A DNA stretch of 64,000 nucleotides. It comes from Uranotaenia lowii. Its lineage: Eukaryota > Arthropoda > Insecta > Diptera > Culicidae. The position numbers and the translations under genes are program-made. Below are positions 13,701 through 46,690 of this stretch, in pieces. How positions within the stretch are numbered: position 1 is the stretch's first letter; each line of letters starts with the position of its first letter. The notes beneath the pieces are model-generated. The model worked only from the letters and a program-made list of their open reading frames with translations. It was not told the origin of the DNA and ran no database searches. The stretch is from positions 233,383,102 to 233,447,101 of the forward strand of contig NC_073693.1 in NCBI RefSeq assembly GCF_029784155.1, in the 5' to 3' direction.

Positions 13701-13950
13701 AGGCCTTATAACCAGGCAAATGGGCTTGTTTGGTGCGCTCATGCTTTAACCAAGTTTCTCCTAAGACAACAACGTGAATTTCTTCGGCAATCTGGTTCAA
13801 CAATAACTTTATATTATCAAACTTATCAGGATTGTTGATACCTCTTGCATTAAGCTGGAGAATTTTTAAAGAAAAACGACTTGATTTATTACTATTTTTA
13901 TTTAATTCTTCGATTGTATTATATAAATAGTTTTTAGATGTAATATTCAT
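10723..13950 (-). pseudogene. Retrotransposon ORF2 (endonuclease-reverse transcriptase), disrupted
   Basis: The start is the ATG at 13950. The N-terminal AP-like endonuclease shows LNARG, GETW, IYRPPS and GDMN, and the SDH motif is readable near 13250 only in another frame. The reverse transcriptase follows with SAGPDGIP, NYRPISVLP, a DLKKAFD motif, GIPQGS and the catalytic FADD (about 11.9 kb), then a thumb and a typical C-terminal tail ending at 10723. Full length would be roughly 1,075 codons. I see a frameshift near 13290, a second at an A9 run (13211-13219), a third at an A6 run near 12183, an in-frame TAG near 11590 and another frame change between 11231 and 11112. The element therefore cannot make the enzyme from this copy. 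Confidence 0.85.
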
Positions 13951-13992
13951 GATTTATTAAATGATTTTACATAGAACGGCAGTGGCTGGAAG

Positions 13993-15111
13993 CTAATTCT
14001 GCATATGATGACGCTTTGGCGACGACATGGCAAACGATGATGTACTAGAGAAGTTCAGTGCACGCTTTTTTGATTCCATCAGCTTCACCAAATCCTGCTT
14101 CGAGCTTACTTTTTCAACTCTTGCACCATCTGTTCTTCTAATCAGAATTTTTCCATCTCGTCCCGGCCATACGTATTTAATTCCCATACCTTCTTGCAGC
14201 TTTCTGGTTTCATTAAGCAGATCCTTTCCAAAAGCTGTCATTTCATCACGCATTGTAACAATTTCGGAGGATTGGTTGAATATGTGTCCCACCGATGATG
14301 TTTTAAGTACTCCATGAGCACGCTTTTTGTCGAACAAATTGTTTTTAGTTTCTTCCGAGTTGAAAACAACCAATATTGGAGGTATACTGCTGGACGATTT
14401 GCTTCCTACTAGACGTCTCGCATTTACTATCTCATTTTCTTCTATATTGCAGCCTACAGCCACTCCCATTTGCTGAATGAGAGCACGAGGGTTTTCTTCT
14501 TCTGTTATGGGAACACCCAGGACAATTGCGTTACGAGATAGCTCCTTACGATTTATGCGATCAAGTTCTACCTCAAGCACATCTATTCGTTCCGAGCGAG
14601 GCCCGTTTTGCTCTTTGCAAGTGACTATTTCCATTTTAAGCTCTTGGTTTTAAGTTCTCAATGCTACTAGTTCCAGTTTAAATTCCTCAAATCCTTTGCT
14701 TATCTGGTCGAATTTTTCGGCTAAGAATTCTTGCGAAGATTCTATGTGTCTATTTGTTTCGAGTAATTCTCCTATTTGTTGCCTAGACTGCTCGAGTGCG
14801 ATGCGAACATTTGCGGATTCTTGTCGCGATTCCCTTACTGATTGCCCTAATGAACGTAACTCCTCAATAATTTGATTATAATCTCCTTGCTGTTGGGTTC
14901 TGGGTAATGAGTGTTGTTCAAAACATTCTGGTGAACAGTAAAAAGCTTTTTTTCTAGCCCGCGCAATAGCATTTCCACGAATTTGTTTACATCGGAAATG
15001 AACAGATCGGTTACATGATACACACTCGATAACGCGCATTGGATCTTTTTCCGTTGAACCACACATGTAGCATATGATTGCGCTATCGTCATCATCATCA
15101 TTGAAATTCAT
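13993..15111 (-). pseudogene. Retrotransposon ORF1 (PHD finger + coiled coil), one internal stop
   Basis: The probable start is the ATG at 15111, since upstream in-frame sequence has only a GTG at 15225. The product begins with an Asp-rich stretch, then a zinc-binding PHD-like finger (CYMC, CVSC, HFRC, CSPEC; about residues 13-65), then a Gln/Glu-rich coiled coil, then a globular region beginning near NAIVLGVPI that resembles the RNA-binding domain of non-LTR ORF1 proteins. ORF1 proteins bind element RNA and act as nucleic-acid chaperones. An in-frame TAA at 14652-14650 falls within the coiled coil; the same frame continues to the natural stop at 13995-13993. ORF2 starts 42 bases later. Confidence 0.8.
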
Positions 15112-15811
15112 ATTTGTACACCTTTTTAACTTTGAAGAGATTTTGGCAACCCTGTTAGCATAAATCTGTCCGTGAGATGAAGCGTCGCGACGGATTCGGC
15201 GGCGCGCAATATTATCTTTTCTCACGTCTCACTTGTTGACAATCGATCGAGACGAACCAAAACAATGGACGATCTACGACGGTGTAAGTTTGTTCGGGTT
15301 TTTCAAGTGATTTTGTGCATAAATACCTGCTATTTATGTACGTTTACCAAGCCGATTCGAGTTTTCCGGGACCCCAGGTATGCCAAGCGATTCCACAAAG
15401 CGGCCAAGTATATTACGGGTATGTTTTCGATAGTTATTTTTTGTATTTTCTTGAGCGCCTTTAAGATTGAGCATCCGATGACTTCACTTCTTCTTCTTGC
15501 AAAGCAATATATATTCGCGATTTGAATGTCTATTCGTTTATCAATGTATCAGGTATCAGAATGGGAGTAGGCTTAATGGCGGCACGTTATCCAAACATAC
15601 GGGAAAATTGTGCCTAGCCTTTTTTTTAATCCAAGATTTCATCATTTACCTGAGAAACCTGAAAAACCTATAAAAGGAAGAAATAAATTCAATCTATTTA
15701 AGATGGCATAAAGCCTTTCCACTAGGGATTATTAGCATTAAAGCCCTTTTCTACATTTGGTAAGGAATGATAGCATGTCTTTTAAGTTTAATTTCTTAAA
15801 CTCAGATTCGC

Positions 15812-24902: not shown

Positions 24903-25291
24903 CACTTTTTGTGCAAAACTGTAAAACAGTAAAACATTCAGAAAGTAAATTTTTTAATTCAACTATCAACTCTCCCAAAGACCGCGAGTAATTTTGACTC
25001 CTAATTAAAAAGTTATAGATTTTTTTTTGTTTATTTTTCCTAAATTACGCAAAATGCAAGAATTTGGATGGAAATTTTTTCAATGGAGTTTAAATGGATT
25101 TAAACTCCATTGAAAAAATTTCCATCCAAATTCTTGCATTTTGCGTTATTTAGGAAAAATAAACAAAAAAAAAATCTATAACTTTTTTATTAGGAGTCAA
25201 AATTACTCGCGGTCTTTGGGAGAGTTGATAGTTGAATTAAAATATTTACTTTCTGATTGCTTTACTGTTTTACAGTTTTGCACAAAAAGTG
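24903..25291. repeat. 390-bp near-perfect palindrome
   Basis: CACTTTTTGTGCAAAACTG at the left end is answered by its reverse complement at 25273-25291. The arms match almost base for base to a centre near 25097 (TTTAAATGGATTTAAA). The RNA or single strand would form one long hairpin. The right arm from 25139 is the beginning of the 1,832-bp tandem unit, while the left arm is not duplicated. Confidence 0.85.
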
Positions 25292-26970
25292 AACACAAAT
25301 ATTTGAATTTTCAGCTTTATTCGAAAGATTTATAAAAATCAAGAGGTAATAGAAAAAAAAATCAATTGTTTTTTTTTAAAATCAGCGCCCCCAAATATGT
25401 TAAAATGTGGATTTTTTTAAGACTTGTGTAATAATCGTAGTTTGTATTGATATCTTATAGTTTAAAAATTATCATTTTATGAACTCTCTTAAGAATCTCT
25501 CATTATAATTGTTATTTTTCAAATAGAAATAATACACACATTTTGGGAGCAGACAGCGTTCACGCAGACAATCATCACGCAATCTACACTATTTTAACCT
25601 GTGCATCTTCATATCAACACTTGGCTCACAACAATTTTTTTTATTGATTCTCAGTTTGCAACTATACGTTAGAAAAATCAATCATTTGAGTAAAGTGTTT
25701 GTAAATAAATGTTACGAATTTAAAAGTGATTGTAAATATCTGAAAATGAATTATTTCTGAAGTATTTGTATTGCGATTTGAAAATATCGTCTCATTATTA
25801 TCAATTCTTGTTTCAATTGTTCAAACCTTCAAGATAAGCTTTATACTGAAATAAAATTATCAAATTCAGGTTCTGAAGTTTGAAGCTATTGGAACTTTAT
25901 TTTTTCATTGATTTTTCCTTGAACTGCAAGCTTTCTTAAAAGATTAGTAATTTTATTTGAACTGAAACGAATGAAAAAGGAACAAATGTGCAAAAATGAA
26001 CTCAGAAAAAGGTGATTTTTTTTTATAAACAAGTCATTTTAAAAATTTTAATATAATTTTCAAATAAAAAAAATGGAATAAAGGGTTCATTTCTGATAGG
26101 TAATATTGATGTTTTTGAAGAGTCTGAATCATTTGCAATTTAAAAAGCCAATTTTTCAGAGTAAGGGTGGCTTTTGCACTTAGAAGCTGAAGCTGAATTT
26201 CTATATAAAATTTTACTTATTATTGTATGGATGGAAAAATTAAAACATAAGCCACTTTTTGGTTCTGGCAATTCTTAATGTTTAAAGAACTAATAATAAA
26301 TTAACATTTATAACAATATTTTTAACACACAATCCCCTCTTATGATTTATTGTTGATGACCAGTATTTTTCGTTCCTCCCGGGCAAAATACCTTAAAATT
26401 TTATTCACGTTTGAGACTCAAGCAACCCCTCCCTACGGCCAGATCTTCCTGAAACTTGGCATGTGACCTTCTGGTAAGCTAATAAATAATTTTGACTTGG
26501 AGCGAGTGAGATTGATCATGTTTTATTCTTCCTATACTATGATAAGTGTACTGCGGTTCGTTAAATTATGAAAAACTACAAAAAATACTATTATGGTAAA
26601 GTAGCCATAACTTCTTCAATTTTCAACCGATTTTAATAAATTACCACTTGAAATCTTTGTTTTAAATTGACATTTAAGCGCAAAAGAAAATCAGATTTTT
26701 TAAATGCTACCGTTTAGTCTAAAACTTTCGTTGAAACAAAATTTTCTCGAAAAAAATGCTTTTTTTTATTTTCACTAATCTAATATCAACAATACTGTTG
26801 GTCAAACGAAAAAACAATGTTCAGATGATCGATAGAAAATTTATTCACCTGCAATATGCAAAAGAGGGATTTCAAATTACTGTTAATCTAAGTACAAGGA
26901 CTTTTTTAATTTTTTCGAAATTTAATATTTGGAACATAACTTAAAAACGGTTCTACTGAGATTTTTTTGA
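25139..26970 (+). repeat. 1,832-bp tandem duplication, copy 1
   Basis: Every stretch I compared with 26971-28802 is identical at an offset of 1,832. The unit is AT-rich, with no gene; the short frames inside it are repeated exactly. It starts within the right arm of the palindrome 24903-25291. The absence of differences means either a very recent duplication or a duplicated contig segment. Confidence 0.9.
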
Positions 26971-28802
26971 TTTTGCGTTATTTAGGAAAAATAAACAAAA
27001 AAAAAATCTATAACTTTTTTATTAGGAGTCAAAATTACTCGCGGTCTTTGGGAGAGTTGATAGTTGAATTAAAATATTTACTTTCTGATTGCTTTACTGT
27101 TTTACAGTTTTGCACAAAAAGTGAACACAAATATTTGAATTTTCAGCTTTATTCGAAAGATTTATAAAAATCAAGAGGTAATAGAAAAAAAAATCAATTG
27201 TTTTTTTTTAAAATCAGCGCCCCCAAATATGTTAAAATGTGGATTTTTTTAAGACTTGTGTAATAATCGTAGTTTGTATTGATATCTTATAGTTTAAAAA
27301 TTATCATTTTATGAACTCTCTTAAGAATCTCTCATTATAATTGTTATTTTTCAAATAGAAATAATACACACATTTTGGGAGCAGACAGCGTTCACGCAGA
27401 CAATCATCACGCAATCTACACTATTTTAACCTGTGCATCTTCATATCAACACTTGGCTCACAACAATTTTTTTTATTGATTCTCAGTTTGCAACTATACG
27501 TTAGAAAAATCAATCATTTGAGTAAAGTGTTTGTAAATAAATGTTACGAATTTAAAAGTGATTGTAAATATCTGAAAATGAATTATTTCTGAAGTATTTG
27601 TATTGCGATTTGAAAATATCGTCTCATTATTATCAATTCTTGTTTCAATTGTTCAAACCTTCAAGATAAGCTTTATACTGAAATAAAATTATCAAATTCA
27701 GGTTCTGAAGTTTGAAGCTATTGGAACTTTATTTTTTCATTGATTTTTCCTTGAACTGCAAGCTTTCTTAAAAGATTAGTAATTTTATTTGAACTGAAAC
27801 GAATGAAAAAGGAACAAATGTGCAAAAATGAACTCAGAAAAAGGTGATTTTTTTTTATAAACAAGTCATTTTAAAAATTTTAATATAATTTTCAAATAAA
27901 AAAAATGGAATAAAGGGTTCATTTCTGATAGGTAATATTGATGTTTTTGAAGAGTCTGAATCATTTGCAATTTAAAAAGCCAATTTTTCAGAGTAAGGGT
28001 GGCTTTTGCACTTAGAAGCTGAAGCTGAATTTCTATATAAAATTTTACTTATTATTGTATGGATGGAAAAATTAAAACATAAGCCACTTTTTGGTTCTGG
28101 CAATTCTTAATGTTTAAAGAACTAATAATAAATTAACATTTATAACAATATTTTTAACACACAATCCCCTCTTATGATTTATTGTTGATGACCAGTATTT
28201 TTCGTTCCTCCCGGGCAAAATACCTTAAAATTTTATTCACGTTTGAGACTCAAGCAACCCCTCCCTACGGCCAGATCTTCCTGAAACTTGGCATGTGACC
28301 TTCTGGTAAGCTAATAAATAATTTTGACTTGGAGCGAGTGAGATTGATCATGTTTTATTCTTCCTATACTATGATAAGTGTACTGCGGTTCGTTAAATTA
28401 TGAAAAACTACAAAAAATACTATTATGGTAAAGTAGCCATAACTTCTTCAATTTTCAACCGATTTTAATAAATTACCACTTGAAATCTTTGTTTTAAATT
28501 GACATTTAAGCGCAAAAGAAAATCAGATTTTTTAAATGCTACCGTTTAGTCTAAAACTTTCGTTGAAACAAAATTTTCTCGAAAAAAATGCTTTTTTTTA
28601 TTTTCACTAATCTAATATCAACAATACTGTTGGTCAAACGAAAAAACAATGTTCAGATGATCGATAGAAAATTTATTCACCTGCAATATGCAAAAGAGGG
28701 ATTTCAAATTACTGTTAATCTAAGTACAAGGACTTTTTTAATTTTTTCGAAATTTAATATTTGGAACATAACTTAAAAACGGTTCTACTGAGATTTTTTT
28801 GA
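26971..28802 (+). repeat. 1,832-bp tandem duplication, copy 2
   Basis: Abuts copy 1 directly at ATTTTTTTGA|TTTTGCG and ends at 28802 where flanking sequence diverges (GAATTTCATT). It contains only the right arm of the palindrome, not the left, so the duplication happened after or together with the foldback formation. Confidence 0.9.
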
Positions 28803-30233
28803 ATTTCATTTTCGGATTCAGCATACGATTTCACATTAGAAATGACCTTCAGTTTACTGAGTTCAAAAATGCTGTTAACTAGTGTAATTAATGTAATGGA
28901 TTTGGAACGGAATAAAATCAAATCGGTTCCAAAATTTAAACTATGATTTTAAGAATTTAAAAGGGTTATTAATTTTGAGAACCTAATTTTTTATTTGCAA
29001 ACTAATCATGAATTCATTGTAAACGCAAGTGAATATAGTATTGATACTAGTGCTTAAGATTTTTTTATGAGTTTACCATCAGTTTAGACATCGGTTTTGA
29101 ATTTTTCATGATTTAATTTTTTTATCTTTATAAGCTTTTCTATTCTGAAATCAAATTAATAATATTTCCCTTTATATTCTGAATGTGTGATTTCTTCAAT
29201 TTTAAATATATCTTTTAAAAAACAAAAAAAATACTGATAGGGAACGTTCCATTCCCCGAAACTTGAATGCGACATCAGCATTCGTTGTATATTACGTTTG
29301 AAACTTTATGGTAAAATATCGATAATAGAAATTTGATTTCAAAATTGTAATCGTCATTTGGTCTCAGAACAAATTTGGCGTTCTCATTTACTACTTAATA
29401 ACTATGATTTTTTTTTTTTATATTTTAGGATGTAAATTTTTGATGAAAACTATAAATGAATATTAAAATTGTTCGATTGTGATAATGGCTTGAAATATAG
29501 GTCTACCTCTGCCAAGAGAAATACAAACAAAAATCATTTTCCTTTAAAATTTTCAAAATGAACATCTAAACAAGATTTTTTTTTGTGTGTGAGGAAAATG
29601 AAACTCTTATATTTTTTTGGGAACAGTACTCGTTCTATCTGAGCTTATCTTTAAATCTCTTAAGTCGATTTGTTGTTTATTTTTTTTATTTTTAAGATAT
29701 TCTGAATTTTAAATGAAAAAAAGGGTTTGTGTAAAAATCGAAACTTGCATTAAAAATACAAACAAATTTGAAAATGAATATTATTGAAAAGTTACCATAA
29801 TGAAAAAATAGTTTTAAACCCTACTTGAGAAAAATTTTGTCGCTTTTTCAATGTTATACATATCTGTTGTGAATTGGTAACTTCCGAATTTCATGTTGTC
29901 CCTCTCAGGCGGTTTTTAAAATTTTAAAGTTGATTTTTGTCTAAACAAAATCTTTTCTAGATAACACTAGATTTCGAAGTTTTATTTATTTTCAAGTAAT
30001 TTGGCATCTAAATTAAAATTTCAATTTTTCCACTTTCCTTTGCCCCCCCCCCCCCCCTTTGATCATTTTTGAGGGTCGGAAAACCGAAACTTTGAGCGCT
30101 TCGAGGCACCCCTAAAAAAATATGCTCATACGCTTATGATCTTAGTTTTGTCAAGTTCTTTCACGTGGGAAAGGAATTTTTGATGAAACATCAATAAGTC
30201 ACACGAACGCAACCAATTTGCAAATCATTGCTT
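28803..30233. other. AT-rich non-coding stretch with a poly(C) tract
   Basis: No gene seen. A run of C residues at about 30044-30057 followed by GAGGGTCGG-type sequence resembles the C-rich end of the G-tract elements in this window, but no matching terminus or target duplication was found. Confidence 0.45.
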
Positions 30234-30552: not shown

Positions 30553-31088
30553 AGTTTTTCAAAATAAAAAAAAAAAAAAAAAATTTCAAACAGTCAGAAC
30601 TCGGGAGATTAATGTATTTAAAAAATAATAAAAAATGCCTAATGATACCTTAAAAATGTAGAGAACCTTACCATTTTTTTTATTTTTATCTTTCACTAGC
30701 TGACCCGGTGTGCTTTGCTACACCTTTCAAAATCAAATGATATTTTCAGAATTTACTCAATTTTTTTTTGTTTTGTAGCATTATTTGAAATCAAAATATA
30801 ACATAATTCATAGTTGTCTGCGGATACGTGTACATTGCAACTCTAAGTTATGAAAATTGTTTTACTTGTTGTGATGTGAAATATTCCTTTGAAATCAAAA
30901 ATATTTATTGAATTAGAAAGCGATTTGTATTTTCTTTCTAATGAAATAAAAGAGTCGTTGAAAAATAAACGGTGAATGTACTGAAATTGTAGTCAAAGAT
31001 TATAAAATTCTCCCACTGAAGTGTGCATCACAAAGCGGTGCAATTTAAAGCAACGTGTGTGGCCGACAGGCCAAAAATCGGCAGTGCG

Positions 31089-32417
31089 ATGTCGTCGACC
31101 TCGACGTGCTGCGCGTGTGTAAAGCCAATACGGGATGAAACAATGAAAGTCAAATGTTTCGGGACGTGTGGCTCGTTCTTGCACTTGAAATGCTGTGATG
31201 GGATAGACGAGAATGGTCTCAAATATATGGAAAAAAACCGCGGGATGAAGTTTGTGTGCAGAGATTGTCGTAATGGGCGATTGGGAAATGAAAACTTAGT
31301 TGTGAAATGCAATGAGTTGATTCAATCAGTGGATGACAATTTTAATAAATGGAAAAAGGAAATTGAACTACAGTTGAAAGAAAATGAGGAAATAGTGAAA
31401 AATATGCTAAAAACTGAAGGAGAAAATATTGTTGAAAATGTTAAAAGTGTTTTAAAAGAAAATTTAACAGTGCAACCAAAACATGTCATAAATATAGAAA
31501 CCCCTTCCGGTCCGAGTACTAATTTGCGATCGAGAAAAAGAGCTCGTTTAGAAAAGGGTGATGATAAAAATCCAGAAGATGATCCCGTACAAATGATGTG
31601 TGCTCGAACCCCTACTTTTGCTGATTTAATGAAAGGAAATAATAAATTCGTTACAAAAACACCTATCAAAAAAAGAGAGCCAATGGTCATAGTTAAGCCA
31701 AAAGAAACTGATCAGACTTCCAGGGCAACTAAAGAAGATTTACGAGCCAAGATCGACAGGTCTGCCGTAAAAATTCAAACCGTAAGAGAAGGGAACAACG
31801 GTAGGGTGATCCTCGGCGTCAATGATGAAGCAAATTTGCAATCTGTTATCTCAAATGTAAAAAATTTAATGGGTGAAAATTATGATGTCACGATTACAAA
31901 GCCAATAAGACCTCGATTAAAAATAACAGGGTTATCTGAAAAAATGACGGCAGAGTATCTGAAAGAATGTCTTACCGAACAGAATGAGTACTTGTCCATA
32001 GAAAGTTTAGAACTTGTTACTATGTTTGCAAATAAATTTAAAGATTTCACACAATATACGGCAATTATAGAAGTTGATGTGGTCTCACTGGAAAGCATGT
32101 TAGAAATGGGTCGAGTAAATATTGGTTGGGACAGATGTAGAGTCGTAGAAAGTTTTAGCATTACACGTTGTTTCAAGTGTTGTGCTTATGGCCATAAAAG
32201 CATAGAATGCAAAAACAACGAAATCTGTTCCCGTTGTGCATCTAACCATAGAACGTCGGATTGTGAGTCAAATTTTAAGAGCTGTGTCAATTGCAGAAAT
32301 ATGAATATAGAACGAAAAATGAATTTGGACACCAATCACTTTGCATACAGTGAAGAATGTCCAGTTTACAAAAAACTAGTAGCAAACAAACGTCGTCTCT
32401 TGAATTATGGCCCATAG
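31089..32417 (+). CDS. Retrotransposon ORF1: PHD-like finger, coiled coil, CCHC knuckles
   Basis: The start is the ATG at 31089 (442 residues); in-frame sequence upstream to 31023 has no earlier ATG. Residues 8-57 form a C4HC3 PHD-like finger (CACV ... CFGTC ... HLKC ... CRDC). A long charged coiled coil follows to about residue 130, then a basic segment containing RSRKRAR, an RNA-binding-type domain, and two CCHC-type zinc knuckles near the C-terminus (CFKCCAYGHKSIEC, CSRCASNHRTSDC) followed by a CVNC ... H pattern. This composition packages element RNA into an RNP. It ends at a TAG (32415-32417) directly followed by CAA CTA, with ORF2 in the same frame. Confidence 0.85.
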   Translation: MSSTSTCCACVKPIRDETMKVKCFGTCGSFLHLKCCDGIDENGLKYMEKNRGMKFVCRDCRNGRLGNENLVVKCNELIQSVDDNFNKWKKEIELQLKENEEIVKNMLKTEGENIVENVKSVLKENLTVQPKHVINIETPSGPSTNLRSRKRARLEKGDDKNPEDDPVQMMCARTPTFADLMKGNNKFVTKTPIKKREPMVIVKPKETDQTSRATKEDLRAKIDRSAVKIQTVREGNNGRVILGVNDEANLQSVISNVKNLMGENYDVTITKPIRPRLKITGLSEKMTAEYLKECLTEQNEYLSIESLELVTMFANKFKDFTQYTAIIEVDVVSLESMLEMGRVNIGWDRCRVVESFSITRCFKCCAYGHKSIECKNNEICSRCASNHRTSDCESNFKSCVNCRNMNIERKMNLDTNHFAYSEECPVYKKLVANKRRLLNYGP

Positions 32418-32423
32418 CAACTA
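32415..32423 (+). promoter_or_regulatory. Putative leaky stop codon: TAG CAA CTA
   Basis: The ORF1 stop and following six bases, TAGCAACTA, match the UAG-CAR-YYA context that permits readthrough in tobamoviruses. The frame is open on both sides. A 5-codon frame starting ATGGCC (32406) overlaps the stop and could alternatively cause reinitiation, but no in-frame AUG sits at the ORF2 beginning. Confidence 0.55.
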
Positions 32424-35246
32424 GAAGAACAGAAAAAAAATCAACCAACAGTGATTTATTTGAATTGTGGAGGTATGACAGCAAACTTTGAAGATATTCG
32501 TTTGATGGTGCAATCGATGAAACCGAAAGTAGTAATGCTGACTGAAACGCATGTGACAGAAACATTAGACGTTAACCTTTTCCAGCTACCAGATTTCCGT
32601 TCCGTTATTTGCTTCTCTGATTCGAGGCACACTGGAGGAGTTATGATTTATCTCCATGCAAGCATAAAATATAAGGTCCTATTGAATGCTAAAACAAATC
32701 GAAATTGGTTCCTCGGTATCGAAATTTTCTCTGGAATAACTGCGGGTCGATATGGTGTGCTGTATCATTCACCTAACGACAGTGATGCCATTTTTCTAAA
32801 AGTCTTAGAGGAAACTTGGTTGGAGGAATTTGTTGACTTATCTAAGTTTAACTTGATAGTCGGAGATTTCAATATAGATTGGGTAAATCCTGCAGATTCC
32901 GCAAACCTGAAAAATATGATGAATTCGTTCTATCTCAAACAGCATGTTAAAGATTATACTCGCATAACACGTACTAGCCAAACACTGATTGACTTGGCGT
33001 TCTCAAACTGTGATATTCATGTTTGTGCCGTTAACGATTTTAAAATCTCTGACCATGAAACTTTATGTTTGTACATTGGTAACAACAGTATTGATTGTGA
33101 TGAAAAATTAATTAGGGTACAGAGTTGGAAAAATTACTCCCCTGACAAATTACTTACATTGCTGAGAAGTCATATAGAACAAATAAATTCAGAATGGCTG
33201 CTAGATAATCTGCATAATAAAGCAAAATGTTTAATCGAGAATATTCAAAAATGTGTAAATACATTAGTGACCGTTGAATTTAAAAAAACCAAAGAATCAA
33301 TCAAATGGTTTGATACTGAACTTGCCCAGATGAAAAGAAGAAGGGATAAGTCGTACCAGAAATTTTTGCAGTGCAACACTGATCTTACATGGTCACTCTA
33401 TAAAACGTACAGGAACGAGTATTCATGTAATCTGCGAAGAAAAAAGCGAGAATATATACAGCGCTCTATTGACGCGAATAAAACGAATAGTAAGGAGCTA
33501 TGGAAAGTCCTCAAGAAGCTCATAAAACCAGCTACACCTTCAGCTAAATCAATTGAATTTGATGGAGTAGAAGAATATGAGCAGTTGAAAATCGCCAATA
33601 TGTTCAATGAATATTTCATATCAAGCATTGAAGAAATTAGTAGTTCCATTGAAACAGAGCCTGAGCCCATTCAACTTACAGGAATGTACACCCAAAGCCA
33701 ATTAGCCAATTTTTCCCCTATAACGCTTGAATGTTTGAAAAAAATTGTCTGGACAATGGGATCATCTTCTGGTGCCGATATAGTGAACTGCAGAATATTG
33801 AAAGATGGATTTGAATTAATTGGTGGTAAACTATTGCACATCATCAATGAATCATTGTTGACGGGAATCGTTCCGCAGTCCTGGAAAGAGTCTCTAGTCG
33901 TTCCGATTGAGAAAGTCAATGGAACATCAAAAGCAGAGGAGTTTCGACCCATTAATATGCTTCCAGTTTATGAGAAGGTTTTGGAGTTAATAGTGAAGGA
34001 GCAGTTATTATGCTACATAGAAGCAAACAAAATACTGGTTGCAGAACAAAGCGGATACCGTAAGAATCACTCTTGTGAAACAGCTCTCAACTTATTACTG
34101 GCTAAATGGAAAGGAACATTGGATAAAAAAATGAAAATCATTGCCGTTTTTCTCGATTTAAAGCGAGCATTCGAAACTATTTCACGCAAAAAACTTATTG
34201 ACACGCTTTCGAAATACGGGATAAAAGACACAGCTCTTAAATGGCTCCAATCCTATTTAGAAGGCCGATTTCAAAGAACCAAATACTCCTCTGTGATATC
34301 AAATACCAAAGAAACCACGCTTGGCGTACCCCAAGGAAGCGTTCTAGGACCACTGCTTTTTATTTTATATATAAACGACATGAAGAAAATTCTCAAACAC
34401 TGTGATATTAATTTATTTGCCGATGATACTGTGATATTTATTGCTTGTGATGATGCTGGTGCTGCTGTCCATAAATTGAACTGTGATCTCGTGAATTTGA
34501 ACAAATGGCTGAATTTTAAAATGTTAAAACTAAATGTCTCTAAAACTAAATGTTTGGTCGTCTCTAACAAGCATATGAACTATGATTCAGTAAACGTTTG
34601 TATCGATGGTGTACGTCTCGATATAGTTCATGAAATAAAGTATCTCGGTGTAATAATAGATGAGAAATTAAACTTCAAAGATCACATCAACAATTCAGTG
34701 AAAAAAATTGCCAAAAAATTTGGTTTAATGTGTCGTTTACGTAAAGATTTGTCACAGTGGAGTCTAATTTATTTGTATAAAGCAATCATATCCCCGCATT
34801 TTGACTTCTGTCCGTCTATAATATGTTTCGCAAACGATCAGCAAATGGCTCGGCTACAAAGGCTTCAGAACAAAATCATGAGGTTGATCCTCAGATGCCA
34901 TCGAAGGACCCCTGTTCAAAATATGCTAAATGCTCTACAATGGCTATCAATTAGACAAAGAGTAACCTACCTCACATTGATTTTAATTTTCAAAATCGTG
35001 AAAGGAATAGCACCAGAATATCTTCAAGAACGGATAGTAAGAGGAACGGACCTGCATCACTATGGAACACGTTTTGCTTGTGAAATACGATCTGCATCAT
35101 TTTTATTGGCATCTTCGCAGAATTCATTGTTTTATCGAGGCATAAGATTATTTAACAATCTACCAACGGAAATCAAAAGAGAAGAAAATTTTAATCGTTT
35201 TAAGATTAAGTGTTTGGCGTTTGTAAAAGTTAATTTTAGTTTATAG
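32418..35246 (+). CDS. Retrotransposon ORF2: AP endonuclease + reverse transcriptase
   Basis: Open for 942 codons after the ORF1 stop, in the ORF1 frame. Counting from the GTG at 32451, the endonuclease shows LNCGG (4-8), TETH (31-34), GDFN (138-141) and SDH (200-202). The reverse transcriptase shows SSGADIV, FRPINMLP, DLKRAFE, GVPQGS and catalytic FADD (656-659), followed by thumb and C-terminal domains typical of CR1/L2/Jockey-type elements. It nicks target DNA and primes reverse transcription there. There is no ATG between the TAG and the first catalytic Asn; the first ATG (residue 9) lies after LNCGG. Translation by readthrough of the TAG is therefore proposed, with a non-AUG start as the alternative. 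Confidence 0.85.
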   Translation, partial: QLEEQKKNQPTVIYLNCGGMTANFEDIRLMVQSMKPKVVMLTETHVTETLDVNLFQLPDFRSVICFSDSRHTGGVMIYLHASIKYKVLLNAKTNRNWFLGIEIFSGITAGRYGVLYHSPNDSDAIFLKVLEETWLEEFVDLSKFNLIVGDFNIDWVNPADSANLKNMMNSFYLKQHVKDYTRITRTSQTLIDLAFSNCDIHVCAVNDFKISDHETLCLYIGNNSIDCDEKLIRVQSWKNYSPDKLLTLLRSHIEQINSEWLLDNLHNKAKCLIENIQKCVNTLVTVEFKKTKESIKWFDTELAQMKRRRDKSYQKFLQCNTDLTWSLYKTYRNEYSCNLRRKKREYIQRSIDANKTNSKELWKVLKKLIKPATPSAKSIEFDGVEEYEQLKIANMFNEYFISSIEEISSSIETEPEPIQLTGMYTQSQLANFSPITLECLKKIVWTMGSSSGADIVNCRILKDGFELIGGKLLHIINESLLTGIVPQSWKESLVVPIEKVNGTSKAEEFRPINMLPVYEKVLELIVKEQLLCYIEANKILVAEQSGYRKNHSCETALNLLLAKWKGTLDKKMKIIAVFLDLKRAFETISRKKLIDTLSKYGIKDTALKWLQSYLEGRFQRTKYSSVISNTKETTLGVPQGSVLGPLLFILYINDMKKILKHCDINLFADDTVIFIACDDAGAAVHKLNCDLVNLNKWLNFKMLKLNVSKTKCLVVSNKHMNYDSVNVCIDGVRLDIVHEIKYLGVIIDEKLNFKDHINNSVKKIAKKFGLMCRLRKDLSQWSLIYLYKAIISPHFDFCPSIICFANDQQMARLQRLQNKIMRLILRCHRRTPVQNMLNALQWLSIRQRVTYLTLILIFKIVKGIAPEYLQERIVRGTDLHHYGTRFACEIRSASFLLASSQNSLFYRGIRLFNNLPTEIKREENFNRFKIKCLAFVKVNFSL

Positions 35247-35849
35247 TACGTGTTAAATGTGAGTAATTTATTACCAGATGATGATGAAGTCAACTGAACA
35301 AACGTCTCTGAGCCGCACATGACAAATATCAAAAGCAACGCGATCTGGGGCGCGGTAAAACCCTGAAATGGACTCATGTGTGTGTGGGAAGGGTTGAATA
35401 TCCTGAAATATCCCTTTTCTCAGATGGTCCCTGTTCAAAAGTTGAGAATTAATAGCACCAAAATAAAAAGCAGATAAAAAGGCAATGATGGACGTACATG
35501 GGAATACATTCACAGAAAAACAGCAAACTAAAAAATCGACCAAACATGAGGAGACTGTATAAAATATCTTACAAGATAATCCAGCCCAAGATCCCATGTA
35601 CGGGGGAAAGTGGAGGGCCATCATCATCATCATAAGCAGCCGCTATAAAATGAGAGCTGCAGCTGGAGTTTCGGATTGCTGCACCAAAATAACTTAAATT
35701 TATATTCTGAATCTTCATTCGTGTTAAAGATCTGATAATTTTAATCTGTTTCTATAAGCTTCGCCCTAAAAAAGGAGGGTTCCAAATAAATAGTACGCAA
35801 ACAATCCAACTGATAAAATATGGTTATTTTTGCTTGATATGTTCTGGTT

Positions 35850-37310
35850 TTATGCTAAAAAACTGATAAGAGAGACCACCCCCTCCCCCTCGTGGCCTTC
35901 CCTTCCCCCTGCTGAATGGAGATCGTGATTTTTAATAATCATACCCATTTTTTTCGTTCCCAAAAATCTTCTTGTATCAAATATTGTTCCATTGGTTGAT
36001 AATTTTTCAAGCTTTACAACAAAATTTATATGGAACCCCTTCCTTTTTTCTCCTCTCTACACTGTGAAGCGTTAGGGTCTATCGTAGAAACATATCTCTT
36101 AACCAAGTACCTTTCTATGCCATATTTGTTTCCATTTGATGGCTTCGTTAGCATAAATTGAAAACTTATGATATCAAAATTGTATTGGGCTCACCTCCCT
36201 CCTCCTATGTACATACTCACTGAAAGGAGGATGGTGTGTCAGCTCTGTTTGCTCTAATATTTCTCAAGATATGCAAAAAATTGTATGGTAGCCTCCCTTG
36301 CCCCCTTAATATCTTTCCGCTGAAAAAAGTGGGGCTTCAACTTATAAAAGAAACATTTCTCGTATCCAAATACCCTCAAATGCAAAATTTGGTTCAATTT
36401 GCTCGATCAGCTCTCCAGTTATACTGAAAATTGTAAGGGAGACCTCTTCCCCCCTTTTCATCCATCTTTTTGAAGGAGTGAGGGATACCAAATATTCACA
36501 GAAGCATTTCTCGTACCGAAATATTCCATGCCAAATTTTGTTCCATTTACTGTTTTAGTGCTTGAGTTATGCAGTAAAAAATGTATGAAACTCCCCTCTC
36601 TTTTTCCTTTCTCCCCGCTGGAAGAAGGAAAGAGTCTCAAACAATCATTAGAACATGTCACGTTCCCAAATACCCGCCCATGCCAAGTTTGGTTCCATTT
36701 GCATAATAAGTTTTTGAGTTATGTAAAATATATATAAAAGAGCCCCCCCCTTTTGAATCTCCCTACTGGAAAGAGGGAGGGGTCTCAAATAATCATAGAA
36801 AAAATTTTCGTATCCAAATACCCTTCTATGCTAAATCTGGTTCCATTTGCTTTATCAGTTTTTGAATTATGTAAAAAAAATATTAAAGGCCCCCTCCCTC
36901 TTTTTACTGGAAAGAGGGAGGGGTCTCAAATAATCATTGAAACATTTTTCGTATCCCAATACCTTCTCATGCCAAATTTGGTTCCGATATCTTGATTAGT
37001 TTTCGAGTTATATAAAAAAATGTACCGTAGCCCCCCTCCCTCCTTCCAATCACCCCACTGAGAGGAGGGAGGGGTACCTTATATTCATAGAAATATTCCT
37101 AGTTCCTAAATGCTACCCCATGCCAAATTTGATACCATTTGCTTGATGGGGGCTCGAGTTATGCAAAAAATTGTCTTTTGTTTGGGAGGCCCCTCCCTCC
37201 CTTATCGAGAGAGGGAGGGGTCTCAAACCATAATAGGAACCTTCCCCGGCCTCCAATACCCCCACCTGCCAAGTTTCACGCAAATCGGTTCAGTAGTTTC
37301 CGAGTCTATA
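35850..37310 (+). repeat. Array of ~145-bp hairpin-bearing tandem units
   Basis: The landmark TGCCAAATTTGGTTCCATTT or a variant recurs near 36115, 36389, 36530, 36679, 36829, 36970, 37121 and 37267, a period of about 141-151 bp. Each unit also has a CCCCTCCCTC...GAGGGAGGGG inverted repeat forming a strong stem-loop, and a segment near TTTTCGAGTTAT. Units are well diverged. The array is followed by (CAGA)n and TATATATAGAT. Reverse-orientation arrays of the same unit occur at 45.0-46.7 kb and after 63.36 kb. Non-coding. Confidence 0.8.
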
Positions 37311-40651: not shown

Positions 40652-42201
40652 ATGCACTTCTAAAGTAGACAATGCAATGGTATATTTTGTGGAATCAAAT
40701 TTTTTCGAAGTTTTTCAAATGTTCGTCAAAACGATTAGTTCAGCGTCACGCAGCTCAATAAAGAAGTTCAACGATAATATTCATGGAGTACTATTTCAAA
40801 TTGTTGATTTATTTAGAATTTTAAGCCTTTTGGGTTTATTAATCCCATTCCTGTGTTTTTCTCTAAATTGTAAATTTTTCATTTCATTTATGGAAGAACA
40901 AAGATTATCGGTTCAGCTTGGGATTCAATGGAAAATTAATAACCCAATATCGTATCGTTTTAGTTTATACTTATTCAATATCTAGAACTCATCGATATTA
41001 ATGGTAGCCATTTTTAAATTCTCCATTGAACTGTTATAATAACAAAATCCTTCAATGAACTCGAAGATCGGGACAACCTCGAATCGGTCGATTGCATTTA
41101 ATGAGGTGAGAATTTGTAACAGCTGACGTGCAAACGAACAGCACAAAAGATTTTCCTAAGGGATCGAAGATTTTCTTTTGCACATGGGAGTCATTTCCTG
41201 GTGTGCTTTTTTCCTCTATTCCTATTGAAGCAATTCCTATCGACATGTCTCGTTGCATATTCATTTGCTCGGGTGAAGTGGTTGTCAAATATTTATCACG
41301 GAAAATAACACTGTTTACCGAATGAAAGTTGAATATAACCCGTTCATGAATATGGTTGATCATTTATGAGGTTATGTGCTCTTAGTTTTTTTTATTTCAA
41401 AGATCTAAAAATCTTTGAATCTTAGAAAAGGCAAATGATGCTAAAAATAATGCTATTTAAAAAAACAGTGTCAGAATTCAATATACAAATTTTTAGATTT
41501 TAAATCAAAATTTTGTAAACCAATTTTCCTCTGAAATTGAATGGATAAAATAAATCTAAGAATTGGTCCTAGGAAAAACGGAAACGAATGGAACACATCT
41601 TTCATTGTAATGCCACTAGACTTCTATCGTGTGAAGTTTAAATCATTCACCCTCTATCCTGCCTCTATCTATAAACATAGGCTACTGGCAAACGTTCTTT
41701 CAACTATCCGGGTGTAGCGTAAACATAGACTAAACAGTCGGTACCTTATAGTGGCAGAAAAATGTGTTTCGTCCATGCGATTCCTCAAAGTGCGGCTATT
41801 CAACAGAAATGTCTAATGACAAAGAAAACTTTCCACGCGGCCGACTGCTACCAAACAATTATGGTTGTTAGGTGTAGTTGCCATAAAAATGTGTAGTTGT
41901 TCGAAGCGTGGCGTCTGTCATTTGAAGCAAATGCTAAATGTTTATGTTTTGAAGTGTTGAGGAACATTTTGCTTTGCTTGTGGAGTATCTAAAGATATTG
42001 AAAAAAGTATTTTTTTTGGCTCAAACTAAATTAGCAATCGCTAAAGCATAGATCTTTCCTACTTCAGTCATACGACCAAAGATTTAGAATCGTCTCGTAA
42101 GCCTTTCTGTTACGCTTTTTCCGTCTCTTCTGTCCTGTCGACCTTACAAGCAGATAGAGAAAAAACACCTCCAGAACCAGCACCAGTCATGAAGAGTTAT
42201 T
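40652..42201. other. Non-coding stretch
   Basis: A 132-codon open frame at 40587-40985 starts inside the foldback fragment and has no recognisable feature, so I do not call it a gene. The rest is AT-rich DNA of normal complexity with no termini or RNA genes that I can support. Confidence 0.45.
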
Positions 42202-43006
42202 AGACTAAGTCGATTTGGGGTTATTTTTAAGTTTCTTAAGCCCGGGTTTCTAGAAAGCTTCGTTTTGGTTCAAAACTCATCCATGATTTTTTGCAGAATT
42301 TTTAAGTAGCATTTACGTGTACATGAGTTAATTTGAACTTTAAGGCTTGGATGAAAAAATTGAATATTTCTTTTGAAATAATCAACATGATTTTTGTTTC
42401 TTCTGTAGAACCGATTCTGCTTATGGTTTTTGTGCCAATTTATAAAATCTTTGAAGGAACTTTGTGCAAGACCGTATCTTCGAATTTTTATTAGACAAAA
42501 AAGTTATTAGGTGTGGAATAGGGCCATGTCTTTTGGCGTTGAAAAATAATTAATTCAATTGACATCACTGCCGGGTGCCTAGCGCGGTATTGCATGACTA
42601 CTTTTCAAACAGTACTTCGATAGGCACAAGCAGTGATGTCAGTTGAATTGATTGATTATCAATGCCAAAAGACATACTCCTATTCTACTGTTCATAAATT
42701 TTTTCAGTAAAAAATACGAAGTTACTAACTTGCACAAAGTTGTTCAGCGGAAAATTTCCTTTTGAGTATTTATAAATTGGCACAAAAACCATAAGCAGAC
42801 TAGATTCAACGGAAGAAACAAAAATGATGTTGATTTTTCAGAACAAAATATTCCATATTCTCATACAAACCAATAAGTTCAAATTGACTCATGTAAACAT
42901 TACTTAATAATTCTGAAAAAATCATGGATGAGTTTTTAACCAAAACGAAGCTTTTTAGACACCCGGGTTTGAAAAATTCTAAAATGAGCCCAAATCGACT
43001 CAGTCT
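42202..43006. mobile_element. 805-bp foldback element with long inverted arms and TA flanks
   Basis: The terminal repeats are GACTAAGTCGATTTGGGG (left) and GACTGAGTCGATTTGGGC (right, reverse-complemented), each with TA just outside. The inverted similarity continues through nearly 390 bp per arm (GCTTCGTTTTGGTT and AACTCATCCATGATTTTTT in both) to a centre near 42600. Other copies are partial at 40417-40651 and 54317-54500. Non-coding; a TA-specific (Tc1/mariner-like) origin is inferred. Confidence 0.8.
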
Positions 43007-45002
43007 AATGAGGTATAGAATAAAGAAATTGCTTTAAGTCCGGCGACTCTTCTTCCGTACTTTGAGGTTGAGGTTTAACTGTTATTACCTTTTACCTACT
43101 AGTTTCCATCATTATGAAGTAGGTACACATCAGCTCAGCTCCCAACCCATAGGAGGAGAGATTCCGCAGAACGTAAAGTATCGTTAATGATTCATAAAGC
43201 TAGTAATCATCACATCGGTAACAGGTTGTTCATATTTCTTTGTGATTGAAGCCCTTTTTGTTGTCGCTGTTGCTCCACTCTTTTTTCTATGGGAGCAAAT
43301 AAATGTGGTGTTCATTTGTTGCAGCGAATTGTAGGTATAGCAATAATTGAGAGACAGTCGATTGCCAGGAAAAATCAGTGGACCAGACTCAACACTGAAC
43401 TGTCGATCGACTAGACTCAACATAAGCTGACCTCAACATGAATACGATAAAATGGAAACTTGAAAGATCCACCAACCAGAAAATTCGATATAAACAATTG
43501 TTGATGGTTTATGATTGACATTTGTTCTGTAGTTACAGATAAACATTGAAAATTAAAAGAGAATTACTCAAGAAAATGGATGGAGGTTCAAACCGCTAGT
43601 CTCAGGTTTAAAATTAATCTGGAAATGTCTGGAATCAATTCCTCGACAGCTGATGTCGTGAAACTTTCGGGAATAATGTTATAGAATCCTTAATTTAATA
43701 AAAAATCTTCATTGGGGATGAAGCTTTCCAGAAGGTATTTACAGCACAGCAACGTTCGAACTGCTCGAACGATTCTCTATTTCTTATCATGCTTCTAAAT
43801 ATTACTTAATGTTTAAGCGTTTCAATTTATGTCTCTCAAAATTTGTTCAGTATTAAATTTGTGATAATTTCAATTGCCAGTGCTGTGAAAATGCTTTTCT
43901 TAAGTGAAAATCTTTTTCTGAATTCGATATTGTGATACTAAATTGAGAATTTACATTTTCAAAATTAATTGAAACTCAAGTGGTTAAACTTTGATTTCCT
44001 AGAAGATGGAAAAACTCACTGAAAGGTTATAACATTTGGCCTTGTAAAAATAACTAAAGAAACCAATAATTTTTCTTACTATGCCAATTCTATGTCCCAT
44101 CATCCTTAAAACTTATGATGAATAAGGGGTAGGATTAATTGTGAACATAAGTTTTTGAGAAGCCATTGAAGTTGAAAATTTTTGCATGGTGCCCCCGTTG
44201 ATTACATGTTTATTTTTATATAAACCAAATTTCAAACAAGTATTAAAACACACACCAGTATTTCGTCGTGAAGTTTGCTAAATATTTTGCCAGTCAACAG
44301 GGCATAAAATTAAAGCTTAATTGCGTACAAAAAAAAAAAATTAAATGTGTAGGTTAGGGTAGGGTTACCATACCCCGCAATGCTAAAAAGAGTACAATGA
44401 AAAAAAAATCCGAAAGAGTAAGGAAAACTTTATAAAACTAAAAGAAACATAGTTGTTAAGAATCGTTCAAATACTGCTAATTTGTTGGAAGTAATAGGTA
44501 TGATTAAGCTTTCAAGAACGCCTGCTTGTTTAAAGAAAAAAAAGGAAAAAGCCCGGTCCGGCCCGGTTGCCCTGGTATCGAAGAAGAATACCCGGGTTTA
44601 GTAAAAATCTAAACCAAAACTACATTTTTTACACAAGGTATGATTTTAGGGGCTTGTTTTATCGAAATACACATGCCACATTTTTTTGGAAAAATAAAAT
44701 TTAAATTGAACACCGCCGATGTGACTCAAAAGAGAATAATTTTTCATGTGTTCATTTATCACTTTTTCTTTTGAAGTTTCATGAGAAATGCCTGAATTTC
44801 GGTCAGATTTGCCCAGATATTGCCTGTTTTTTTTTTATTGAAAATTGTATAGTCCAATACCTGGATTATGCCAGGTTTTTGGATAAAAATGCTCGGATTT
44901 GCTCGGCCCTAATACGCTCATTGAGAGGGGTGGAGTGGGCGTCTGGTTTGAAATTCAAATTTATCTAAAAATCATAACAATACCAAAAATCTATTTATTT
45001 AA
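43007..45002. other. Non-coding stretch
   Basis: AT-rich with short frames only. Near 44566-44900 there are CCCGG-containing words and GCTCGGATTTGCTCGG repeats that look like subterminal parts of small DNA elements, but I could not pair ends. Confidence 0.4.
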
Positions 45003-46690
45003 AAATAAATTTCTGTCTGTCTGTCTGTCTGTCTGTTCCCGATAGACTCGAAAACACTGAACCGATTTGCGTGAAACTTGGATTGGAGGCCGAGGAAGGT
45101 TCCTATAATAGTTTCGGACCCTCTCTATTCCTGGAAGGGGAGAAGGGGTCTCTTACATAAAATAAATAAGTCTTCATAGCTCGAGAACTGATCATGCAAA
45201 TGGAATCAAAATTGACATGAGAGTGTATTTCGGTACGAGGAATCTTATCGAGCAAATGAAACCAAATTTGGCTTGGAGTGGTATTTAAATACGAGAAATG
45301 ATCGAATGATAAATTGAGCCACCTCCTTTCTTCCAGCGGGGAGATATATATGGAGAAAGCGGGCTACCTTACAATTTTTTTGCATAGCTTGAGAATTAAT
45401 TCAGCAAATGAACCAAGTTTGGCATCAAAGGGTATTTGAGCACAAGAAACAATTCTATGAACATAAAGTACTTACCCCTGCATTATTTATATGGAGAAAT
45501 CGAAAGGGGAAATCGGACTCTCTCACATGTTTTGGCATAACTCGACTCACCAACCTACTATGCAAATAGAACCAAATTTGGCATGGGATGTAAATATTTC
45601 TATGATTATTTAAAACCATTCCAGTAGGAGCATACACAGTAAACGAAAATTACCGAGTTCGGTAATTTTTTTTACCGAAATCCTAACATGTGTAAATCGT
45701 TAAACTGTTCGGTAATTTTTTCGGTAAAAAATAAACGAACATCGGTAAGTCGATTCTTCATTTACCGATGTTCGTTTCATTTTTACCGAAAAAATTACCG
45801 AACAGTTTAACGATTTACACATGTTAGGATTTCGGTTAAAAAAATTACCGAACTCGGTAATTTTCGTTTACTGTGTAGGATTGACGATACAAGAAAGGAG
45901 GAGAAGGGCTTCCATACATTTTTTTTGCATTTCTGCATTTATCTAACAAATGGACAGTTTTTGACATGGGAAAATTATTTCGATATGGTTATATGATAAT
46001 TTGAGACACTAGCCTTCTTACAGTGAGTAGGAACACAGGAAGAAGGGAGGATTTAACCCAATACAATTTTGTTAGCATAAGTTCTCAATCAATGTTGACG
46101 AAACCAGCAAATGGAATCAAGTATGGCATTGAATGGTATTTGAGTACGAGATATGTTTGTACGATTACTATAAGTAGATCCTACGCCTTGCAGTGTGGAG
46201 AGGGTAGGAAAGAAAGGGGTTCTATATAAATTTTGTTATAAAGCTTAAGACTTATCAACCAATGGGATTAAATTTGATATGAGGGGGGGGGGGGGGATTT
46301 TGGATACAAAAAAAATTAGTATGATTATTTGAGATCCCGACTTCATTCCAGCAGTGGGGGATGGAAAGGGCAGTAGAGTTCCCTTACCAATTTTTTTTGA
46401 CATAAATCGGGAACATATCAAGCAATGGGATCATCTTTTATATGATAGGGTGTTTGCATATAAATTATTTGAGACACTCCCGTTTCAGGGCGAAGTCGGG
46501 GTGAAAGAGGCAGGTTTAATTTAAATTTTATTTGACATAACTCGAAAACTCTTATCAAACAAATGGAGCCAAAAGGAGCATATAACATATTTCAGATATT
46601 TTAAATATTTGTAATGTATAGCTCGAGAGCCGTTTCCCCATTGGGAAGGGGAGAAGATGAGGAATTAAGGAATAACTGATTAATTATCAA
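45003..46690 (-). repeat. Inverted copy of the ~145-bp hairpin-unit array
   Basis: Read on the minus strand, the order is units, then (CAGA)n (TCTG on plus at 45013-45037) and an A/T end, mirroring 35850-37364. The landmark appears as GCAAATGGAACCAAA-type words near 45198, 45250, 45404, 45561, 45945, 46108, 46259, 46412 and 46556. One spacing is shortened and one lengthened by a 245-bp MITE at 45633-45877. The head of this repeat is missing. Confidence 0.75.
45633..45877. mobile_element. 245-bp palindromic MITE with TA target
   Basis: The ends read TACACAGTAAACGAAAATTA inward on both sides and the arms pair along almost the whole length, including ACCGAACTCGGTAA and TTACACATGTTAGGATTT. TA at both edges indicates Tc1/mariner-type insertion. 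The arms are almost unmutated, so it is young. It interrupts the hairpin-unit array. Confidence 0.85.

Follow-up and report, generated by a model that had tools for sequence, protein, structure and literature searches.

A LINE clade in Uranotaenia lowii that may express ORF2 by readthrough of a conserved UAG-CAR stop codon

How the ORF2 of a long interspersed element (LINE) is expressed from an RNA with two open reading frames (ORFs) is an open question; the solutions described so far are reinitiation and starts that do not depend on an AUG (PMC5972666, PMC5009743). For stop codon readthrough of the tobamovirus type, the hexamer CAR-YYA 3′ of the stop is reported to be sufficient (PMC2194720) and essential (PMC2754532), and more than 600 readthrough stop codons have been estimated in mosquitoes (PMC5100048). 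We analyzed a stretch of 64 kb (contig NC_073693.1, positions 233,383,102 to 233,447,101; hereafter the window) out of the 1.08-Gb assembly of the mosquito Uranotaenia lowii, which carries a 4.8-kb LINE whose two ORFs lie in one frame, separated by a UAG in a context of this type. On the sequence evidence given below, it is very probable that the element is an autonomous CR1-type LINE (a clade name that we take to apply) and that its ORF2 is translated through programmed readthrough of the UAG at the end of ORF1.

The window LINE resembles the CR1-lineage LINEs with a type IC ORF1 (CR1_3; Metcalfe and Casane 2014, PMC4120745) in the order of PHD finger, coiled coil, two RRMs and CCHC knuckles, and also in its endonuclease–reverse transcriptase (RT) ORF2, the many families per genome, the 5′ truncations and the short 3′ repeat. 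UAG readthrough is not described in the main text of that account, from which the terms "stop codon" and "readthrough" are absent. With type I readthrough of the tobamoviruses (UAG CAR YYA; PMC2754532), the window LINE and its relatives share the stop codon, the CAA, mostly the YYA and no apparent need for RNA structure, but they are DNA-encoded animal LINEs and not plant RNA viruses, and their second triplet is looser. In MuLV, SIRE1 and Tca2 two frames likewise lie in one phase with a stop codon between them; however, they belong to the long terminal repeat (LTR) retroelements or to the retroviruses, a pseudoknot is required in MuLV, and readthrough in Tca2 is unsupported according to the same source (PMC2194720). 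SART1, with its overlapping stop–start coupling, and L1, with reinitiation, also have a bicistronic LINE RNA, but their ORF2 is described as a separate protein and not as part of a fusion (PMC5972666). In the literature covered, we found no account of a LINE that expresses its ORF2 through readthrough of a UAG; subscription journals and Repbase notes lie mostly outside this coverage, and an earlier mention is possible. In tobamoviruses the polymerase is encoded downstream of the readthrough stop, as it is downstream of the UAG in the window LINE.

ORF1 of the window LINE (31089–32417, plus strand, as are all features of this element) consists of 442 codons and ends at the TAG at 32415–32417, the proposed readthrough site, which is conserved in relatives. 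This is followed by CAA CTA (32418–32423), a match to the CAR-YYA consensus of the type I context (PMC2754532, PMC2194720). The frame of ORF1 then continues as ORF2 (32418–35246), in which 942 codons encode an endonuclease and then an RT before the frame closes at a TAG (35244–35246). The first 14 codons after the stop (32418–32459) form an in-frame spacer without ATG, where the subfamilies diverge with the frame unchanged. The Asn codon of the endonuclease motif LNCGG, which we take to specify the catalytic residue, is at 32463–32465, and the first ATG of the ORF2 frame lies downstream of it (32475–32477). An earlier note made from this DNA had reported the TAG, the CAA CTA, the 942 open codons, the two enzyme domains and the first ATG after LNCGG, all of which we confirmed.

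The alignment of genomic copies, which had been set beforehand as the test, showed that the TAG is kept and is not a sense codon. In the close subfamilies, 28 of 29 junction loci have TAG-CAA (DNA alignment alone, window included; locus L025, which ends short of the junction, was excluded), and the remaining one, L013, is decayed and reads CAG at the site. When a related ORF1 (P0001) was used for the search, 63 of 65 further junctions had TAG-CAR as the stop first reached in frame with ORF1 (at least 101 matches; 98 of 4420 candidates scored), and a search with one of the long-linker families described below gave TAG-CAR in frame at 11 of 14 additional junctions (100 of 3675 scored); more distant families lie outside this sample. 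Over all 108 junction loci of the genome, ORF1 ends in TAG-CAR at 102; 28 of these 102 were assigned by DNA alignment alone and the others by the stop first met in frame with ORF1. The copies have differing flanks, some are 5′-truncated and the closest two are 99.8–99.9% identical to the window copy, so that they look like independent, recent insertions. The TAG is present both in the window copy and in nearly identical copies elsewhere. Among 21 elements (the window copy and 20 fetched ones), the ORF2 frame is uninterrupted in 12, and ORF1 and ORF2 are both fully open, with the TAG as the sole stop between them, in five.

Subfamily A, which includes the window copy (96–100% identity), has the junction TAGCAACTA, while subfamilies B and C, about 73–75% identical to A, have TAGCAATCC and TAGCAATCA, respectively. 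Between A and B, the synonymous divergence (dS) was 1.43 for ORF2 and 2.13 for ORF1, and the ratios of nonsynonymous to synonymous divergence (dN/dS) were 0.11 and 0.18; judged by these ratios, both ORFs are under purifying selection. TAG CAA is identical in A and B despite synonymous sites that are near saturation; the earlier note had proposed such a comparison for the TAG and the whole hexamer CAA CTA.

We then grouped 85 junctions at 80% identity into 23 clusters, of which 22 belong to U. lowii and the last to a soil contig. Two loci had been removed before this set was made (L084, with the site deleted, and L103, with the motif in another frame), and two indel-shifted ones (L041, L051) were positioned by a search for TAGCAA. 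With one representative per cluster, TAGCAA (+1 to +6) was invariant and +9 was A in 21 of 23, while most of the flanking bases were variable; two copies within one cluster carry CAG after the TAG. The full CAR-YYA is present in 61 of the 85 copies and in 17 clusters, and the window copy conforms to it. The tobamovirus-like context claimed in the earlier note stood as far as TAG-CAR is concerned, and its second triplet proved looser than was implied. Stop trinucleotides number 7502 on both strands of the window, among which 40 are TAG-CAR and five are TAG-CAR-YYA. By these counts, the window site by itself is rare by chance, though possible, and it is the conservation among relatives that exceeds chance.

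The reading frame is kept together with the context. When all three frames and all cluster members were searched, the endonuclease motif was found in the ORF1 frame without an intervening stop in 19 of the 23 clusters; in two (L119, L122) the frame could not be judged. The distance from the stop to the motif ranges from 9 to 209 codons. In eight long linkers, together 1142 codons, we counted zero stops in the frame of ORF1 and ORF2 versus 39 and 61 in the other frames; the long pieces number 12, and this count omits L138 (open), L139, L141 and L142. By eye, we also noticed in the long-linker families L133–L144 (for example L135, L142 and L144) a motif of about 20 residues, approximately PV(D/E)(S/T)PG-x-x-GK...SIC-x-(A/V)EA, which occurs once or twice between the stop and the endonuclease.

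A second LINE in the window (10723–15228, minus strand) offered a control group. It has a PHD-like ORF1 with the stop TAG CTT, an ORF2 with its own ATG, and frame breaks. In this sister group the ORF1 stops of 20 junctions were TAA in 12 (one premature, L146), TGA in four and TAG in four, with TAG-CAR in one of the 20. ORF2 was not found at two junctions; in the other 18, it shares the ORF1 frame in two and has a Met where one would be expected in 17. The difference between the groups was 23/23 versus 1/20 for the context (Fisher, 2.5e-11) and 19/23 versus 2/20 for the frame (2e-6, undetermined rows scored as failures), p-values that are descriptive only and overstate independence, since the clusters are related and 22 of 23 come from one genome.

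These data bear on termination–reinitiation, by which ribosomes that have completed ORF1 would resume translation a short way into ORF2, at a non-AUG codon as proposed for mammalian L1 or at an overlapping start as in SART1. Such coupling is known in LINEs (PMC5972666, PMC5009743), and in the window GTG, ATT and TTG codons sit in frame immediately upstream of or at LNCGG, but we consider it improbable for this element. A conserved start codon at or just past the ORF1 stop, of the SART1 or L1 type, was not observed: in 14 of the 19 judged clusters there is no in-frame ATG before the Asn, and in L144 the first one comes almost 300 codons past the stop. The earlier note had offered a 5-codon ATGGCC minicistron (ATG GCC CAT AGC AAC TAG, 32407–32424), overlapping the ORF1 stop, as a reinitiation device. 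The minicistron exists, but it is not conserved, being absent in one close subfamily, GAATACACTCAATAG, and any ATG at all within −30 to +45 was found in just 14 of the 23 cluster representatives; we rejected it as the device. Moreover, reinitiation gives no account of the invariant UAG and CAA, nor of a frame kept over linkers of such different lengths, and the sister group, where ORF2 nearly always has its own ATG, has variable stops.

Several other candidates were considered at the junction. The GTG at 32451 was examined as a mutated ORF2 start, as a relative (P0006) has Met there, and was rejected: the codon is GTT in the copies at 96% identity, and in the remaining subfamilies it is mostly GTT or ATC. 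From ORF2 homologues with a leading Met no conclusion on AUG starts was drawn, because gene callers choose a Met wherever one is present. A 2A-like sequence at NYGP upstream of the stop was rejected, as the 2A pattern DxExNPGP is absent. One LINE (L066:1459-1467) has an in-frame TAG followed by GAA TTT between ORF1 and ORF2, with no Met ahead of the endonuclease motif; to our knowledge, TAG GAA TTT matches no known readthrough context. One single copy carries UGA-CUA(G), which we take to be the type II readthrough context.

Another possibility is a separate RNA for ORF2, transcribed from a promoter inside the element, at the junction, or spliced so as to bypass the stop, for which the promoter reported at the gag–pol junction of Tca2 is a precedent (PMC2194720). 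This seems to us still less probable than reinitiation: such an RNA would still offer no AUG ahead of the catalytic codon in the same 14 clusters, and the conservation of UAG-CAA would be left unexplained. One decayed copy with CAG would speak for a third reading, in which the TAG is a nonsense mutation private to a dying element and the ancestral frame carried a sense codon, or an ORF2 started by AUG. This reading is refuted by the copies: copies and relatives keep TAG-CAR, ORF2 is under purifying selection, and subfamily A has GTG or GTT, not ATG, at 32451.

We therefore favor readthrough of the UAG, for which the support at the sequence level is an in-frame UAG-CAR that is kept, a frame open across the stop, selection on both ORFs and, mostly, no AUG before the catalytic site. 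In the mechanism that we propose, the majority of ribosomes would halt at the UAG and release the ORF1 protein, an RNA-binding, Gag-like product, while a minority would insert an amino acid and go on to an ORF1–ORF2 fusion resembling Gag-Pol. The 3′ context CAR-YYA would aid readthrough without requiring an RNA structure; at the junction, the search for a stimulatory structure gave z-scores of −0.08 to +1.27, nothing beyond chance. Readthrough itself, with its rate, the ratio of the two products and the amino acid inserted, is our inference, as is the role of the fusion as the active enzyme.

Outside the U. lowii genome, one contig supplied the sole readable junction of this clade. LDIY01000043.1 (L052), filed as a metagenome-assembled genome of a soil bacterium, contains a LINE with 35% ORF2 identity to the window. 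Its ORF1 ends in TAG CAA CTA, the same nine bases as in TAGCAACTA, and is followed by a 955-codon ORF in the same frame; a variant endonuclease motif lies in the ORF1 frame, with no ATG ahead of it. Viral contigs gave one short match, which was not used. It is likely, from the comparisons made here, that these elements represent a CR1-type clade rich in families, in which UAG-CAR readthrough predates the divergence of the present families. The clade perhaps extends across invertebrates, as the identical TAGCAACTA in the soil element suggests. Its enzyme would be an ORF1–ORF2 fusion tethered to an RNA-binding partner, that is, a Gag-Pol strategy in LINEs.

Several observations weigh against the readthrough proposal. 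Six of the 108 loci could not be counted in its favor: the motif is out of frame in L103 and L173, L013 has CAG, L084 and L178 have deletions, and L169 is ambiguous. In L178 (G000 C2 near 406272836) the stop lies within the deletion and ORF1 runs on into ORF2 in frame, a natural fusion. Of the 12 long pieces, three (L139, L141, L142) are interrupted by in-frame stops within the linker, and in cluster L121 the sole piece reaching the motif, the interrupted copy L141, has it in another frame past in-frame stops. The full CAR-YYA is not kept in six of the 23 clusters, including sister subfamily B (CAATCC). An AUG-started ORF2 in full-length relatives would, by the earlier note, have refuted the proposal, which survived this check: no in-frame ATG precedes the Asn in the 14 clusters mentioned above, and one does in the other five (representatives L133, L125, L143, L140 and L138). 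The soil element has His at the position of the catalytic Asn, so that this copy may be defective or divergent. In a far relative, P0100, PHD finger, endonuclease and RT lie within one sense frame, and the stop is thus not kept in every related LINE. Nearer to this clade, four search matches were inspected for fusions through a sense codon and none spans the junction, the reach of this search being limited. Finally, sequences around the in-frame stop of the LTR element Tca2 are reported to be insufficient for readthrough (PMC2194720).

If the proposal is right, a large animal clade of LINEs would solve ORF2 expression in the manner of retroviruses, with a set ratio of ORF1 to fusion and with ORF2 held in cis with ORF1, and LINE activity would be tied to the termination efficiency of the host. 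Annotation of genes and transposable elements would then cut these proteins at the stop codon or begin ORF2 too late. The question of ORF2 expression would also become directly testable with a small reporter.

The ORF1 protein shows a PHD-like N-terminal Cys/His finger, a coiled coil, two RRM-like folds and CCHC knuckles, an architecture that fits the type IC ORF1 as set out by Metcalfe and Casane (PMC4120745). The Cys and His residues of the N-terminal finger and the C-terminal knuckles are invariant in seven sequences; the PHD assignment comes from their spacing, with no PHD match from Pfam. A structure model of moderate confidence (mean pLDDT 68.8), which served for domain order alone, has two units resembling RRMs as well as an extended coiled coil, and its top Foldseek matches were tandem-RRM proteins, with low TM-scores (0.15–0.21 by query among the matches listed). 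From the last conserved Cys to the end, the ORF1 proteins P0001, P0002 and P0003 have the same distance as the window ORF1, and P0004 differs. Named protein matches come from Toxorhynchites, Corethrella and Culex. In ORF2, Pfam identified Exo_endo_phos (E 1e-4, slightly below the curated cut-off) and RVT_1 (E 3.6e-31), the latter at residues 506–747 (33933–34658). An APE endonuclease with RT in ORF2 and 5′ truncation of the LINE style are both present.

By comparison of copies, the full-length element extends from about 30812, where the copies cease to match, to 35633, the end of an (ATC)n tail (35620–35633) common to other copies. A target-site duplication of at least 6 bases was sought around 30812–35633 and none was found. 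The ORF1 frame is open from 31020 and its first ATG is at 31089; the putative 5′ untranslated region accordingly comprises 30812–31088. Just 3′ of the LINE, 36250–37300 contains diverged repeats of about 148 bp, with inverted copies within 44989–46279. Elsewhere in the window, a head-to-tail duplication of 1.84 kb (25131–26974 and 26964–28806, 99.8% identity) adjoins an inverted repeat (24903–25291), and two palindromic stretches, 42199–43009 (77% self-complementary) and 45633–45877 (94%), are possibly foldback elements or resemble miniature inverted-repeat transposable elements.

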